A stretch of 64,000 nucleotides of DNA from Streptomyces sp. NBC_01351 (GTDB taxonomy: Bacteria > Actinomycetota > Actinomycetes > Streptomycetales > Streptomycetaceae): positions 2,046,001-2,110,000 of the forward strand of contig NZ_CP108356.1 of assembly GCF_036237315.1 (NCBI RefSeq). The letters are read 5' to 3'. The notes under the pieces are model-generated. The model was not told the DNA's origin. It saw only the letters and a list, made by a program, of their open reading frames with translations, and ran no database searches. The position numbers and the translations under genes were made by a program. Shown piece by piece: positions 6,532-50,692 of the stretch (position 1 is the stretch's first letter; each line of letters starts with the position of its first letter).

Positions 6532-7944
6532 TCAGCCGTCGGTGGGGGGAAGTTCCGCGAGGTGGCGCAGCGGGACCGGGCAGGAGAAGGGGCGCCGGTC
6601 GGGGGCAGGGTCCTCCCCCGCTAGGGCGGCGACGGCGGGCCCGCACATCCGGCCCTGGCACCAGCCCATGCCGGCCCGGGTGAGGAGTTTGACCGTACGG
6701 GCGTCCCGCGCGCCGAGCTCCTCGGCGGCCTCCCGGATCCGGCCTGCCGGGACCTCCTCGCAGCGGCACACGAGGGCGTCGTCGGGGAGCCACCCGGTCC
6801 AGCCGGCACCCGGGCGGTGGGCGGCGGCCATCGCGTCGGCGAATGCGCGGAGCCGCGCGCGGGCCCGGGTGAGGGCGGCGGGGGCGGGTCGGCCGGCGGC
6901 CGTGTGGGCGGCGATCTCGCCCTCGGTGAGGGCCAGTTGGGCGCCGCCGATGCCGCCGGTCTCCCCTGCGGAGAGGATGCCGGGCACGGAGGTGCGGCCC
7001 GCGGCGTCCAGGTCGAGGGCGACCGTGCCGTCGGGGCTGCGGCGGGTGGCGCAGCCGAGTCCGGTGGCGAGTTCCAGCTGGGGGACGAGCCCGTGGCCGA
7101 CGGCGAGGGCGTCGCAGGGGATCCTGCGGGCGGTGCCGGGCAGCGGACGCCAGTCCCGGTCGAGCCGGGCCACGGTGACGGCCTCGACCCGGTCGGTGCC
7201 GTGCGCCTCGGTCACCGCGTGCCGGGTGAGGAGCCGGACGTGGTGCCGGGCGAGGGCTCCGCCGTGCGTGACGGCCTCGACGAGCTTGCCGGGGTTGCGC
7301 AGCAGGGCGGGGAGGTGGCCGGCGTACGCGGTGTACGCGCCGGCCTCCACCACGGCGGGGACGGTGGCTCCGGCGGCGGAGAGCGAGCCGGCCACGGCGA
7401 GCAGCAGCGGGCCGCTTCCGGCGACGACCACCCGCTTGCCGGGGAGGACGAGCCCGGCCTTGAGCATGGCCTGGGCCCCGCCGGCTCCGACGACCCCGGG
7501 GAGGGTCCAGCCGGGGAAGGGGAGTTGGCGCTCGTAGGCGCCGGTGGCGAGGAGGACGGCGGTGGCGTGGACGGTGGCCGCCGATTCCTCGGGGCCGGCC
7601 ACGGCGTGCAGGGTCCAGGTGTCGCCGCCCGGGACCACCGTCCATACGTGGTGGAGCGGGAGGTACGTGATCCGGCCCGCCGAGATGTGGGCCCGCAGGG
7701 CGGCTTCGCGGCGCGCGAAGTGGCCCCAGCCGTGGTGCAGGGCCTCGGGGCGGGCCGCACCCAGGGCGGGCGCGGGGTGGCGGTAGTACTGGCCGCCGGG
7801 CAGCTCCCCCGCGTCGAGGAGGGTGACGCGCAGGCCCAGGTCGGCGGCGGTGACGGCGGCCGCGAGGCCGGCGGGGCCGGCGCCGACGACGGCGAGGTCG
7901 GCCGGGCCCGCCGGCGCGGGGGACTCAGACAGCGAGGTCGGCAT
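6532..7944 (-). CDS. FAD-dependent oxidoreductase with C-terminal [2Fe-2S] domain (HcnB-like D-hydroxyproline dehydrogenase subunit)
   Basis: A 470-residue flavoprotein. The N-terminal VVGAGPAGLAAAV is a dinucleotide-binding motif and a second one (VVVAGSGPLLLAVAG) follows in the middle. The C-terminal BFD-like region has the cysteine set CRCEE...GMGWCQGRMCG, which binds a [2Fe-2S] cluster. This layout matches HcnB/OoxA-type subunits of cyanide synthase, opine oxidase and D-hydroxyproline dehydrogenase. With the small ferredoxin-like gene that overlaps it by 20 bp and the DadA-like gene upstream, it completes a three-subunit dehydrogenase. The ATG at 7944 has GGAGGG in front. Confidence 0.87.
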   Translation of the reverse strand: MPTSLSESPAPAGPADLAVVGAGPAGLAAAVTAADLGLRVTLLDAGELPGGQYYRHPAPALGAARPEALHHGWGHFARREAALRAHISAGRITYLPLHHVWTVVPGGDTWTLHAVAGPEESAATVHATAVLLATGAYERQLPFPGWTLPGVVGAGGAQAMLKAGLVLPGKRVVVAGSGPLLLAVAGSLSAAGATVPAVVEAGAYTAYAGHLPALLRNPGKLVEAVTHGGALARHHVRLLTRHAVTEAHGTDRVEAVTVARLDRDWRPLPGTARRIPCDALAVGHGLVPQLELATGLGCATRRSPDGTVALDLDAAGRTSVPGILSAGETGGIGGAQLALTEGEIAAHTAAGRPAPAALTRARARLRAFADAMAAAHRPGAGWTGWLPDDALVCRCEEVPAGRIREAAEELGARDARTVKLLTRAGMGWCQGRMCGPAVAALAGEDPAPDRRPFSCPVPLRHLAELPPTDG

Positions 7945-8236
7945 GGCCGGTTCCCTCCTGGGTGGTGACGGAGTCGCCCTCGCGGGCGGGGACCAGGCAG
8001 GCGCGCTGGTTCGGGCGGCCGTTGACGGTGACGAGGCAGTCGTAGCAGCTGCCGATCCCGCAGAAGGCGCCGCGCGGGGCGCCGGTGTCACGGGTGGTCC
8101 GCCAGGCGAGGATGCCGGCCGACCAGAGGACGGCGGCGATGGACTGGCCTGCCTGCGCGGGCAGTTCGCGGCCGTCGAAGCCGATGGTGTAGGCGGCCGA
8201 AGGGGTGCCGCCGACCAGGGAGCGGGGGGTGCGCAT
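7925..8236 (-). CDS. (2Fe-2S)-binding protein (HcnA-like dehydrogenase subunit)
   Basis: A 103-residue ferredoxin-like protein. The cluster ligands appear as CGIGSCYDC followed by a distal RAC, the usual plant-type [2Fe-2S] spacing in HcnA-like subunits. It overlaps the flavoprotein gene downstream by 20 bp, indicating translational coupling. The ATG at 8236 is preceded by GAGGAGG. The open frame runs further upstream through a GC-rich tandem repeat, but that extension is Pro/Gly/Thr-rich, unlike any ferredoxin, and is better read as untranslated leader. It likely passes electrons between the two flavin subunits. Confidence 0.87.
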   Translation of the reverse strand: MRTPRSLVGGTPSAAYTIGFDGRELPAQAGQSIAAVLWSAGILAWRTTRDTGAPRGAFCGIGSCYDCLVTVNGRPNQRACLVPAREGDSVTTQEGTGHADLAV

Positions 8237-8280
8237 CAGGGGGTCCTCCTCGGGGGACTGGAAAGGGGTCGGTGCGGTGT

Positions 8281-8459
8281 CCCTGGCGGGGCTGCGGGTG
8301 GGGGCCGTTCCCCTGGCGGGGGGGGCTGCGGGTGGGGCCGGTGCCGTTCCCCTGGCGGGGGGCTGCGGGTGGGGCCGGTGCCGTTCCCCTGGCGGGGGGC
8401 TGCGGGTGGGGCCGGTGCCGTTCCCCTGGCGGGGGGCTGCGGGTGGGGCCGGTGCCGGG
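8281..8459. repeat. 37-bp tandem repeat, about five copies
   Basis: A GC-rich unit starting CCCCTGGCGGGG and ending GGGGCCGGTGCCGTT repeats head to tail. Copies begin near 8281, 8310, 8349, 8386 and 8423. The last three are spaced exactly 37 bp; the first is truncated and the second has two extra G residues. It lies just upstream of the (2Fe-2S) gene on the minus strand. 37 is not a multiple of 3, so it is unlikely to be coding. There are no spacers, so it is not a CRISPR array. Confidence 0.8.
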
Positions 8460-8730
8460 GTGGGGTGTTGTCCGGGACTCATGATTTATGGCGCCTGGGC
8501 GGGTCTTCGTTGGTGGGGCAGGGTGCCGCGCCACAAATCACGTTTTACGTCCCGGACAACACCCCACCCCGTCCCCGTCCAGGGTGCGCAAAAACCAGCC
8601 CCTCCGGCGTTTGAGGAGCGGGGTACGGGGCGGAGCCCCGGATCTTTGAGCCGCGCCGGCGATTGAGGCGCGGGTCCGGGCAGAGCCCGGTTTCGGGAAG
8701 GGGCGGGGTGGGGGAATGGCCCCGCGCATC
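8451..8730 (+). repeat. Long inverted-repeat element, copy A (palindrome plus Streptomyces intergenic repeat)
   Basis: This block is closely similar to the reverse complement of 49100-49405. Its core is an imperfect palindrome of about 115 bp bounded by perfect 23-bp inverted repeats at 8456-8478 and 8549-8571 (inner end GTTGTCCGGGAC). Inside these, ATGATTTATGGCGC partly pairs with GCGCCACAAATCACG. Downstream comes the family repeat CCAGCCCCTCCGGCGTTTGAG with its GGGGCGGAGCCCC hairpin, then a further block (GCGCCGGCGATTGAGGCGCG). The terminal inverted repeats suggest a MITE-like element or a strongly folded RNA. No target duplication was recognised. With the tandem repeat, it fills the gene-free stretch 8237-8749. 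Confidence 0.7.
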
Positions 8731-8749
8731 GGCACGCCCGCGGCCCGGG

Positions 8750-9889
8750 TCACCCGAAGCGCTCCGGGCGGAAGGGGGCGAGGGGGAGCGCGGGTTCGGC
8801 TCCCGTCAGGGCCGCCGCGATGAGGAGGCCCGTCGCGGGGGCCAGTCCGATGCCCGCGCCCTCGTGGCCGCAGGCGTGCAGGAGCCCGGGTCGGCGGGGG
8901 TCGGGGCCGATCGCCGGGAGGTGGTCGGGGAGGTAGGGGCGGAAGCCGTGGTAGGTGCGCAGGATCCGGGTGTCGGAGAGGACGGGGAAGAGGGCTGCCG
9001 CCTGGGAGGCGAGGCGGCGCAGGGCTTCGGTGGAGAGGGTGCGGTCGAAGCCGACGCGTTCGCGGGTGGCGCCGATCAGGACGGGGCCCGACGGGGTGCC
9101 CTCCACCACCGCCGAGGACTGGAGCGCGGCGGAGCCGCTGGCCACGTCCGCGATGTAGTCGGCGGCGTAGACCTTGTGCCGGACCACGCGGGGCAGCGGT
9201 TCGGTGACCAGGACGAACCCGCGGCGCGGGAGGACGGGGAGCTCGACCCCGGCGAGGGAGGCGATGCGGCCGCCCCAGGTCCCGGCCGCGTTGATCACGG
9301 CGGGGGCGAGGAGTTCGCGGCGCGGGGTGCGGATGCCCCGTACCGCGCCGGTCGCGTCCAGGAGGATGTCGGTGGCCTCCTCGCCCAGGTGGACCTCCGC
9401 GCCCGAGGCGGCCAGCAGGCGGGCCGCCGCCTGGGCGGGCTGGACCTGGGCGTCCTGGGGGTAGAGGAATCCGCCCGCCAGGCCGGGGGCGAGGTGGGGT
9501 TCCAGGTCGTGGAGGGCGTGCGCCGCCACCTCGACCGTCTTGACGCCGGCCTTGTGCTGCCCGGCCGCGAAGCTCCGCAGGGCGTCCACCGCGGCGGGGG
9601 TCGAGGCGACCACCAGGCCGCCCTTGGACTCGTACTCGATCTCCCGGGGGAGGGTGGCGGCGAGTTCGTGCCAGAGGCGGGTGGAGAGCAGGGCCAGGTC
9701 GAGCTCGGGGCCGGCCTCCTTGTCGGAGACCAGCAGGTTGCCCTCGCCGGCGCCGGTCGTACCGCCCGCCACGGGGCCGCGGTCGACGACGGCCACGGCG
9801 AGTCCGGCGCGGGCCGCGTAGTAGGCGCAGGCCGCTCCGACGACGCCGGCGCCGATGATGACGGCGTCCAGGGAGTGTCTCTTGAGCAC
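8750..9889 (-). CDS. FAD-dependent DadA-family oxidase (HcnC-like D-hydroxyproline dehydrogenase catalytic subunit)
   Basis: A 379-residue D-amino-acid-dehydrogenase-type flavoprotein. VIIGAGVVGAACAYYAARAG near the N-terminus is the FAD-binding motif, and the C-terminal GHEGAGIGLAPATG closes the FAD site. In this setting it would oxidise cis-4-hydroxy-D-proline to delta1-pyrroline-4-hydroxy-2-carboxylate. It starts at a GTG with no clear Shine-Dalgarno; TATTAC stands four bases before the GTG, so a leaderless transcript is possible. A candidate GntR site overlaps this region. The inverted-repeat element separates it from its presumed partner subunits. Confidence 0.85.
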   Translation of the reverse strand: MLKRHSLDAVIIGAGVVGAACAYYAARAGLAVAVVDRGPVAGGTTGAGEGNLLVSDKEAGPELDLALLSTRLWHELAATLPREIEYESKGGLVVASTPAAVDALRSFAAGQHKAGVKTVEVAAHALHDLEPHLAPGLAGGFLYPQDAQVQPAQAAARLLAASGAEVHLGEEATDILLDATGAVRGIRTPRRELLAPAVINAAGTWGGRIASLAGVELPVLPRRGFVLVTEPLPRVVRHKVYAADYIADVASGSAALQSSAVVEGTPSGPVLIGATRERVGFDRTLSTEALRRLASQAAALFPVLSDTRILRTYHGFRPYLPDHLPAIGPDPRRPGLLHACGHEGAGIGLAPATGLLIAAALTGAEPALPLAPFRPERFG

Positions 9890-47655: not shown

Positions 47656-48588
47656 TCAGGCGGCGGTCGAGGCGCCGGAGGCGATGCCGAAGCCGGGGTC
47701 CGGGACGGTCTCGGGGCTGATCAGGCGGGACGGCACCCCGTCGGGCCCGACCGGAACGTCCCCGTCGACCGTCACGCGGCGCAGGGTGCGCTCGTGGTCG
47801 TCGGAGTCGTCCACGCCGTAGTGCTGGGTGGCGCGGTTGTCCCAGATCGCGACGTCACCGGCCCGCCACTGCCAGCGCACCGTGTTTTCGGGGCTCTCGA
47901 TGTGGGACTGGAAGAGGTCCAGCAGGGCGCGTGAGTCACGGCCGCCCAGCCCGTCGATGCGCTGGACGAAGTTGCCGAGCAGCAGGGTGCGTTCGCCGGT
48001 CTCGGGGTGGACACGGACCACCGGGTGCTCGGTGAGGAACTTGGTGGAGGTGAACACCTCGCGGTACTGCGCCAGGGCCTCGGGCAGCGCGTCGGGCTTG
48101 AGGGCCGCGTAGTCGTACTCGTTGGAGTGAAGGGCGCGCAGGCTGTCGGCGAGCACCCGGAGGGGCTCGGGAAGGCCGGCGTAGGCGGTAGCCGTGTTGG
48201 CCCAGAGGGTGTTGCCGCCGTACGGGGGCACGGTGACGGCGCGGAGGATGGAGAAGGCGGGGTAGGCGGGGACGAAGGTGACGTCGGTGTGCCACTGGTT
48301 GGCGCGGGCGCCGTGGTGGGAGTCGATGCCGAGGGCGTAACGCCCGTCCGCGGAGGGGACGGTGGGGTGTGCGACGGGCGCGCCGAGCAGTTGGGCGAAG
48401 GCCTCGTGGCCGGCCTCGTCGAGGTGGTCCTGATCGCGGAAGAAGACGACCTTGTGGGCGAGCAGCGCGGCCCGGACCTCGGCGACGGTCTCCGCGGGGA
48501 GGTCGCCGCCGAGGCGGACGCCGCCGATCTCGGCGCCGATGCGGCCGCCGATCCTGGTGACGGTGGTGTGGGTGGTGGCAGTGGTCAT
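47656..48588 (-). CDS. TauD/TfdA-family 2-oxoglutarate-dependent dioxygenase
   Basis: A 310-residue Fe(II)/2-oxoglutarate dioxygenase. The facial triad is His100-Thr-Asp102 (WHTDVTF) with the distal His in NRATQHYGV, and the 2-oxoglutarate arginine lies in [11 protein letters not shown]. It probably oxidises taurine or an alkyl sulfonate/sulfate to release sulfite or sulfate. It is the first full gene of the sulfur operon. GGGGAG precedes the ATG. Confidence 0.92.
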
Positions 48589-49099: not shown

Positions 49100-49405
49100 G
49101 GAGCCACTCCCCGCCCCGCCCTTCCTTCGTTCCCCGAGCGCCGCCCGGGCCCGCGCCTCAATCGCCGGCGCGGCTCAAAGATCCGGGGCTCCGCCCCGTA
49201 CTCTCCCCCCAGACTCCGTCCGGGGGGACCCCCACTCCTCAAACGCCGGAGGGGCTGGATTTCACGCGCCCAGGACGGGGACGGGGTGGGGTGTTGTCCG
49301 GGACGTAAAACGTGATGTGTGGCGCGGCACCCACCCGTCACCATCAAAGACCCGCCCAGGCGCCATAAATCATGAGTCCCGGACAACACCCCACCCCGGC
49401 ACCGG
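49100..49405 (-). repeat. Long inverted-repeat element, copy B
   Basis: This is the reverse complement of the block at 8451-8730. The perfect 23-bp inverted repeats are at 49282-49304 and 49376-49398. The core has only scattered changes from copy A, mostly in the loop (TTCGTTGGTGGGG against TTTGATGGTGACG). The adjoining intergenic repeat carries about 30 extra bases, a GGGGGGACCCCC-type hairpin, around 49205-49240. It lies between the sulfur operon promoter and the ROK gene. Confidence 0.7.
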
Positions 49406-49507
49406 CCCCCACACGCTGCCCCCGCGCCCGGTCACCACCCCACCCGCCAAGCCCCCGGCACGGGAACCGGCATGATCGGGGGACGCCCCCACCCCCAAGG
49501 AGCCCCC

Positions 49508-50692
49508 GTGACCCCCATGGCCGGCGACAGCCGGGCCGCCGCGAATGCCGCCACCGTGCTGCGCACGGTCCTCGCGCACGGCCCCGTCGCGCGCAGCGCC
49601 ATCGCCCCGCTGTGCGGGCTCAGCCCCGCCGCCGTGTCCCGGCAGGCCACCGGCCTGCTCCGCAGCGGGCTGCTGCGCGAGCTCCCCGGGCCGGCGGCCT
49701 CCGGCGCGGGACGGCCGCGGATCCCGCTCGACCTGCACACCGGCCCCGTCGGCGGACCCGTCGCCGCCGGGCTGCACATCGGCGTGCCCGCCGCCACCTT
49801 CAGCCTCGTCGACCTCCGCGGCACACTCCTCGCCCGCCGCACCTCACCCCACCACGCCCCCGGCCCCGGCCCCGGCCCCGCCGGCATCGGCGACATCGCC
49901 GACCGACTCGCCGCCTTCCTCCGCGAGTTCGACACCGGCCGCCCCCTCCTCGGCGTCGGCGTCGCCCTCGGCGGCTGGGTCCGCCCCGGCGACGGGACCG
50001 TCGTCCGCCACGACGCGCTCGGCTGGCGGGACCGCCCCCTCGGCGCCGAGCTCGCCGAGCGGCTCCGTCTGCCCGTCTCCGTCGACAACCACGCCCGCGC
50101 CGTCGCCCACGCCGAGATCCTCTTCGGCCGGCCCGAGGCCCGCCGCAGCCTCGTCCACCTCTTCATCGGCAATGTCGTCGACGCCGCGTTCGGCATCGAG
50201 GGCACCGTCCACCAGGGCCCGGGCGCGGCAGCCGGTGACGTGGCCCACCTCCCGGTGCCCGGGTCCCGGAAGACCTGCCCCTGCGGACGCACCGGCTGCC
50301 TCCAGGCCACCGCCTCCGACTCCGTGCTCGGCGCCGAAGCCGTCCGTCGCGGCATCGTCCCGGAGCCGTCCGTCAACCTGCTGGTGGACGCGGCGGCGAC
50401 CGGCGACCCCCGCGCGGACCGGCTGCTGCGTGAGCGGGCCCGCGCCGTCGGCGGAGCGGCGGCCGTCCTCCTGGACGTCTTCAACCCGGCCGTCATGGTG
50501 GTCACCGAACTGTCGAGCGTGCTGCACGACGGCTACCTGGAGGAGATTCGCGACGCCGCGGCCGCGATCTCGCGGACCGGGAGCGCCCCCGGCCGCATCG
50601 TGAGCCCGCACGCGGGGCCCGCCGTACTCCCAGGGGCGGCGGCGACCGTCCTGCTCGGGCCGCTCTTTCGTGACCCCTCCCATCTCAATTGA
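49508..50692 (+). CDS. ROK-family transcriptional regulator
   Basis: A 394-residue ROK protein with an N-terminal winged helix (RSAIAPLCGLSPAAVSRQATGLLRSGLL) and a sugar-kinase-like domain. The structural zinc site is CPCGRTGCLQ. The ATP/phosphate segment GVGVALGGWV is kept but the kinase DxGG motif is degraded, which is normal for ROK repressors. The GTG at 49508 follows AAGGAG. It is divergent from the sulfur operon across the repeat element, which it might regulate. Confidence 0.88.
   Translation: MTPMAGDSRAAANAATVLRTVLAHGPVARSAIAPLCGLSPAAVSRQATGLLRSGLLRELPGPAASGAGRPRIPLDLHTGPVGGPVAAGLHIGVPAATFSLVDLRGTLLARRTSPHHAPGPGPGPAGIGDIADRLAAFLREFDTGRPLLGVGVALGGWVRPGDGTVVRHDALGWRDRPLGAELAERLRLPVSVDNHARAVAHAEILFGRPEARRSLVHLFIGNVVDAAFGIEGTVHQGPGAAAGDVAHLPVPGSRKTCPCGRTGCLQATASDSVLGAEAVRRGIVPEPSVNLLVDAAATGDPRADRLLRERARAVGGAAAVLLDVFNPAVMVVTELSSVLHDGYLEEIRDAAAAISRTGSAPGRIVSPHAGPAVLPGAAATVLLGPLFRDPSHLN

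Follow-up and report, generated by a model that had tools for sequence, protein, structure and literature searches.

The window, which is the whole stretch of 64,000 nucleotides from Streptomyces sp. NBC_01351 that was analysed here, contains two copies of a hairpin element, each located in a gap between genes and each adjoining a generic repeat. The genes and features are as follows.

7925 to 8236, minus strand: 2Fe-2S protein gene (Fer2_4), which flanks copy 1 together with the gene at 8750 to 9889
8456 to 8571, no strand assigned: hairpin element copy 1, in orientation A on the plus strand, with the best-folding strand B on the minus strand; perfect 23-bp arms; included in alignments A2 and A4
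8456 to 8478, plus strand: left outer arm of copy 1
8479 to 8495, plus strand: left conserved inner core of copy 1, TCATGATTTATGGCGCC, the same in 7 of 7 copies of its own genome
8496 to 8527 (approximate limits), no strand assigned: variable apical loop of copy 1, with a mean pairwise identity of 72% among the 7 own copies (58% for shuffled loops)
8528 to 8548, plus strand: right conserved inner core of copy 1, GCGCCACAAATCACGTTTTAC; the internal loop GTAAA is at 8544-8548 on the minus strand
8549 to 8571, plus strand: right outer arm of copy 1
8595 to 8690, plus strand: generic Streptomyces repeat that begins with CCAGCCCCTCCGGCGTTTGAGG and forms a family of its own, found without the hairpin at dozens of sites across the host genome
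8750 to 9889, minus strand: FAD-dependent oxidoreductase gene (DAO), next to copy 1 on its upstream side
47656 to 48588, minus strand: TauD-family dioxygenase gene, to the left of copy 2, which lies in a divergent gap
49134 to 49258, minus strand: generic CCAGCCCCTCCGGCGTTTGAGG repeat adjoining copy 2, of the same family as 8595 to 8690
49282 to 49398, no strand assigned: hairpin element copy 2, in orientation B on the plus strand; arms at 49282-49304 and 49376-49398; internal loop GTAAA at 49305-49309
49508 to 50692, plus strand: ROK-family gene, right neighbour of copy 2

The two copies belong to blocks that lie in opposite orientation about 40.4 kb apart, as a sequence-only reading of the window had noticed: positions 8445-8690 match 49134-49409 in stretches of 71, 103 and 68 nt that are 93-97% complementary. 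The palindrome of about 115 bp with perfect 23-bp arms and a partly paired interior, described by the same reading, is found in both copies, with a length of 116 bp in copy 1 and 117 bp in copy 2 and an interior of 70-71 nt between the arms. The two hairpins agree in 109 of 117 columns of an alignment that stops one base short of the end of copy 2. Perfect 23-bp inverted repeats (loop ≤120) occur twice in the window and not once in five order-1 Markov controls, and the inverted repeats of the window copies are not a product of chance. The RNA folds of copy 1 yield z-scores of -8.96 for the minus strand and -4.76 for the plus strand (200 shuffles each), and both RNA and DNA folds of a window copy favour strand B over strand A.

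What had been described as a 280-bp element with 23-bp terminal inverted repeats is a mosaic of the hairpin and the CCAGCCCCTCCGGCGTTTGAGG repeat side by side. The arms are real and mark the ends of the 116/117-bp hairpin, not those of the 280-bp unit. Among 94 matches listed for the host genome (40 of 330 candidates scored), 7 places carry the hairpin part and dozens carry the CCAGCCCCTCCGGCGTTTGAGG part only; therefore, two unrelated repeats have been joined. The proposal that the palindrome is joined to a common Streptomyces repeat holds for both copies. The generic repeat frequently occurs in opposed pairs in the host genome and may itself be a second dispersed hairpin family. Tandem G-rich repeats of the GGCGGGGGGCTGCGGGTGGGGCCGGTGCCGTTCCCCT type occupy 8290-8450 in the same gap as copy 1, and a CTGCGGGTGGGG-like stretch is also found to the left of several elements in a relative, G173; the gap is therefore a mosaic of repeats.

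The host genome (G000) contains 7 hairpin copies, as determined by sequence match, by an arm 15-mer and by a family covariance model built from 30 sequences. With at most one mismatch, the 15-mer marks both arms of the 7 elements and 5 lone places, and the covariance model recovers the same number of elements, each of which is weakly matched on the other strand as well. Genome scans detect 32 copies in G173 and 32 in G225, where they form 8 head-to-head pairs, 195-198 bp apart, and 16 singles. Relatives were identified by blastn in 14 of 150 genomes of the genus. The covariance model yields matches in 51 of 295 genomes of the genus at a lenient E≤0.01 (a count that includes weak genomes such as G218 and was inspected in part), 24 of 147 genomes of an order sample at E≤0.001, and 3 of 197 genomes of a class sample at E≤0.0001, all three of the same genus and thus from 1 of 90 genera. 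A right-core pattern has at least 109 matches in genome contigs, with 90 of those 109 being the full element; the matches listed include S. lavendulae, S. virginiae, S. goshikiensis, S. jumonjinensis, S. flavidovirens and S. narbonensis, and the 19 without the full element include all 13 non-Streptomyces records among the matches listed. One copy resides on a linear plasmid and shares 80% identity with the window copy. Phages gave no family match, six exact pattern matches in viral contigs all lack the left core, and a search of Rfam with 15 loci returned nothing at the gathering score and only three sub-threshold microRNA matches. The family is best explained as one of non-autonomous dispersed palindromic repeats of approximately 115-145 bp that occur in multiple copies in Streptomyces. 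A local duplication with no other copies and no covariation, which the sequence-only reading had named as the outcome against it, is not what was found, given a multi-copy family with 32 copies in each of two relatives and strong covariation.

This covariation is evident in a structural alignment (A4) of 77 members below approximately 86% identity, which represent 77 of 78 representatives of 226 finds; the one dropped, L196, is a loose match from Desulfobacterales. (Rows L042, L055 and L060 were dropped from alignment A2.) Standard pairs occupy 87.0% of 2990 cells, compared with 75.0% in shuffles. Two-sided changes are observed at 28 of 39 base pairs, versus 20.5 in shuffles and 17-24 in slid controls, and in 324 cells, versus 105.5 in shuffles. 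The covariation score is 0.304, compared with 0.118 for shuffles and at most 0.110 for slid controls. The covariance analysis of the arms, suggested at the outset as a check, is therefore positive, and the two-sided changes affect 21 of 23 pairs of the outer helix and 7 of 16 pairs of the inner helix. They are also found at 20 of 37 pairs in the 30-sequence set, versus 10.0 in shuffles.

The near-constant letters are internal and constitute the GUARA internal loop and the UGAUUUG/YAAAUCA stem. On strand B, the internal loop G-U-A-R-A is followed by CGUGAUUUG, and the opposite side reads YAAAUCAUGC, such that the loop is asymmetric, with GUARA against A. The U of the internal loop is constant in 77 of 77 members, and the loop reads GTAAA at the DNA level, with G as the fourth letter in 14 of 77. 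Core length ranges from 65 to 74 nt, and the spacing of the half-sites varies accordingly. Two pairs are G.U on strand B in 75 and 73 of the 77 members and A.C mismatches on the opposite strand. Wobble cells number 263 on strand B versus 65 on strand A, and 154 versus 68 in a set of 118 distinct arm pairs; counted by sequences, with the two constant pairs and pair 34-113 excluded, the bias is 45 versus 10. By alignment columns, the counts are 16 versus 11 (P = 0.44), and the copies are not independent. In the set of 118 arm pairs, the strand-B excess is equal (31 versus 15) with either strand B or strand A as the sense strand of the neighbouring genes. Strand B is the probable recognised strand. 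Relatives of approximately 100 nt in G218 (L318 and L320) retain a GTAAG/A internal loop together with the outer stem but lack the TGATTT inner stem, which suggests that the internal loop is the core signature of the family. A diverged subfamily in G404 and G368 (L324-L326) has an upper inner stem that is altered around unchanged GATTTA/AAATC letters.

Why do the two arms of these dispersed hairpins stay alike, while the 30-nt loop between them does not? Within genomes, the arms are 95-99% identical and the arms plus cores 95-100%, whereas the apical loops are 72-76% identical (54-58% when shuffled) and the flanks 59-72%. These values come from 31 of the 32 copies of G173, 7 of G000 and 11 type I copies of G225, and the early observation that the arms are conserved and the loop varies is true in all three genomes. 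In G225, the loop identity of 73% comes close to the flank identity of 69-72%, a point against the proposal made below. Between genomes, arm changes are matched in the partner arm. At a site common to G004 and G162, the right flanks are 97% identical and the arms are separated by three paired double changes. Gene conversion alone could homogenise the arms but would not maintain the asymmetric loop across the genus. Templated arm correction would perfect the palindrome and erase the asymmetric loop, and yet the loop persists; therefore, selection on the internal loop is likely.

Eleven sites are common to at least two genomes, including the copy 1 junction (G000 and G173), and the element is in opposite orientation at 3 of the 11: G074/G257 versus G004/G162, G143 versus G224/G268, and AP-93 at the copy 1 junction, where the element is also present in G173 and the orientations in G173 and AP-93 are opposite. 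L114/L112 was rejected as a flipped site, since only a distant gene in reversed order is common to both. Of 29 relatives, 25 were scorable at the copy 1 junction, and all 25 have a gap of 0-105 bp with no core, compared with 513 bp in the host; the oxidoreductase gene is the neighbour at this short junction in 11 of the 11 genomes covered by both searches. In species with common sites, the flanks are mostly 80-97% alike, and such sites are explained equally well by slow vertical descent and by movement. Some G173 copies at different loci have a common left or right flank, and the arms in G173 extend to the limits of the shared sequence. No transposition event was seen, and no target-site duplication was noticed by eye in the 32 G173 copies, the empty sites being too diverged for duplications to be read; near-identical empty sites that give the exact insertion ends were not obtained. 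Recombination between the two window copies had been predicted to invert the intervening segment. Only relatives with both marker genes 38-50 kb apart on one contig are informative for such an event, and no inversion of the 40-kb segment is seen in the three that qualify (G173, G257 and G074), because the mutase gene, which lies outside the segment, and the oxidoreductase gene within it keep their relative direction.

The placement of the family relative to genes is markedly uneven. The count starts from 181 copies and excludes 14 edge cases, 5 copies that overlap a called gene and 11 whose loci are shorter than 2.5 kb. The remaining 151 copies with both neighbours, in which two-copy gaps and common sites are counted more than once, occupy 67 convergent, 73 co-directional (38 + 35) and 11 divergent gaps; with each gap counted once (n = 140), the numbers are 63, 67 and 10. 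As background, the 8-kb loci contain 157 gaps of 100 bp or more without an element, of which 13 are convergent, 74 co-directional and 70 divergent. Copies are thus rare in divergent, promoter-bearing gaps, copy 2 being among the few, and 140 of 151 lie behind at least one gene. Their direction shows no preference relative to co-directional genes (38 versus 35). No theme emerges among the neighbours: 94 of 99 representative flanking proteins match 134 Pfam families, none with more than 3 members (25 of 134 viewed). The right flank of L114 (G225:C1, approximately 5.015 Mb) harbours a CRISPR-like array of twelve GCTCCCCGCGCGTGCGGGGGTGTTCCC, mostly 61 bp apart, that starts approximately 130 bp from the element.

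A search for a mobiliser by Y1_Tnp, by RVT_1 and at the loci around the copies found none. Y1_Tnp is present in 8 of 17 element-bearing and 3 of 15 element-free genomes (32 genomes; Fisher P = 0.15). It is absent from the other 9 element-bearing genomes, including G173 and G225 with 32 copies each, and none of 25 Y1 loci has an element within 1.5 kb. A Y1/RAYT transposase was accordingly rejected as an obligatory partner, the excess being weak and non-significant, although a past link to Y1 may exist. RVT_1 occurs in 9 of 20 element-bearing and 7 of 15 element-free genomes (35 genomes), and some copy-rich genomes lack it; a reverse transcriptase partner was likewise rejected for lack of association. 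Inspection by eye of the genes between paired copies at five loci recognised no mobile gene.

Small repeats of palindromic form are well known from proteobacteria. The Streptomyces element resembles REPINs and REP sequences in being an extragenic hairpin with conserved inverted halves, a variable spacer, compensatory changes and within-genome families, as described in PMC3116915, according to which REPINs are thought to be recognised as a folded single strand by RAYT transposases. Unlike them, it has no unpaired GTAG/CGTC tag at the hairpin foot; its stem continues outside the GTAAA loop and is much longer, its fixed letters are located mid-stem, and no Y1 transposase match is found in the two 32-copy genomes. 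The idea that the GTAAA internal loop is the counterpart of the REP tag is a lead only. ERIC/IRU, a 127-bp intergenic repeat, likewise forms one long stem-loop, but it has TA ends and target-site duplications and occurs in enterobacteria and Vibrio (PMC2229807 and PMC2267715; compared by description), and the asymmetric internal loop is a feature of the Streptomyces element. YPAL/RU-2 of Yersinia and Erwinia is palindromic, approximately 168 bp long, not A+T-rich and without TA ends, and the Streptomyces element also has no TA ends and is not A+T-rich. YPAL/RU-2 differs in its internal inverted repeats and its target-site duplications of 3-26 bp (PMC2229807; compared by description), whereas the arms reach the ends of the Streptomyces element in G173. 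CGTC-tagged REPs are palindromic and seemingly lack a dedicated transposase, but they are 20-40 bp long and bear an unpaired CGTC at one end (PMC3733652). Streptomyces is unmentioned in the accessible portions of PMC3733652, PMC2267715 and PMC10969869, and the words 'repeat' and 'palindrom' are absent from that of PMC3765725, on Streptomyces non-coding RNA. Text searches of open-licence listings gave no description of this hairpin family or of small palindromic repeats in Streptomyces, and an older subscription paper may exist.

We propose, with slightly better than even confidence, that the element is a dispersed miniature repeat of the REPIN/ERIC/YPAL kind that is recognised as a hairpin by a trans-acting factor. 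Recognition of a folded single strand is suggested because the interior is fixed and the exterior is free but paired. The recognised form would be strand B, as RNA or ssDNA, folded into a single-stranded hairpin, 5'-stem-GUARA-RCGUGAUUUGYGG...loop...YAAAUCAUGCA-stem-3'. The trans-acting factor would read the asymmetric internal loop (GUARA versus A) and the adjoining stem, thereby fixing the letters there, whereas pairing alone would suffice in the outer stem and in the upper part of the inner stem, and the apical loop would be free. The same factor may copy or convert the elements, giving rise to the likeness of arms within a genome. Gaps at 3' ends would tolerate the insert and promoter gaps would not, and mRNA ends would be affected only secondarily, if at all. 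Among the options offered by the sequence-only reading (a MITE-like element, a structured RNA or a DNA-binding site), the best match is a miniature element that is dispersed and has a hairpin under selection. A plain double-stranded DNA binding site is a poor match, given that pairing survives letter changes and that the distance between half-sites varies.

A rival view is that the host selects the hairpin as a bidirectional terminator or 3'-end stabiliser of mRNAs from the preceding genes. We consider it unlikely, although it accounts for the position of most copies behind a gene, the strong preference for convergent gaps and the stability predicted for RNA folds of the two window copies (-78.5 to -84.4 kcal/mol). 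Streptomyces terminators may be without T-runs. A T-run-based scan of 8200-8800, covering one copy, detected no terminator-like site at the hairpin; its single site falls in the generic repeat (expectation from shuffles, 0.5). Moreover, a terminator needs no fixed GUARA loop, fixed inner stem or preferred folding strand, and it would not be expected in a minority of genomes and in random direction relative to genes, nor where copy 1 separates same-direction genes that have a short junction in relatives and copy 2 occupies a divergent gap. The conserved internal loop, the near-constant G.U pairs and the covariation would suit a structured RNA that acts in trans, or a set of decoys that capture a host RNA-binding protein, encoded in many near-identical copies. 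This alternative is quite improbable, since no promoter-like site was found (one copy scanned, sigma-70-type sites only), identity within genomes is as low as 59-72% in the flanks past the hairpin, and up to 32 copies in random direction are unusual for a regulatory RNA.

Two further explanations were considered. A classical MITE, an internally deleted DNA transposon whose terminal inverted repeats are bound by a DDE transposase, would agree with the size, the inverted arms, the copy number and the element-free junctions. It is a poor match, since the interior holds the fixed letters and drift affects the outer arms; no longer relative appeared in a partial look (gene lists of five loci, 25 of 134 neighbour Pfam families) and no target-site duplication was noticed by eye in the G173 copies. 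We regard this origin as very unlikely. The hairpin may resemble attC, a site that an integron integrase reads through its R and L boxes. By this analogy, the element might be a folded single-strand recombination site that a tyrosine recombinase flips in place, in keeping with both orientations at 3 of 11 common sites, the asymmetric internal loop and the variable apical part. The flips are, however, explicable by recombination between the inverted arms with no special enzyme, and such a role appears extremely unlikely.

The proposed dispersed repeat recognised as a hairpin leads to a more daring, distinctly doubtful version, in which a mobile hairpin is spread and homogenised within genomes by an enzyme class not yet tied to small repeats, neither a Y1 HUH transposase nor a reverse transcriptase. 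Such an enzyme would read an internal GUARA/A loop within a long single-stranded hairpin stem, where other positions would be free if paired, and the arms would be converted in concert while the apical loops diversify. The motif may be fixed enough to fish out a putative binding protein, and the family, whose structural signature is clear, provides a marker that can be counted in a genus of linear, recombining chromosomes.
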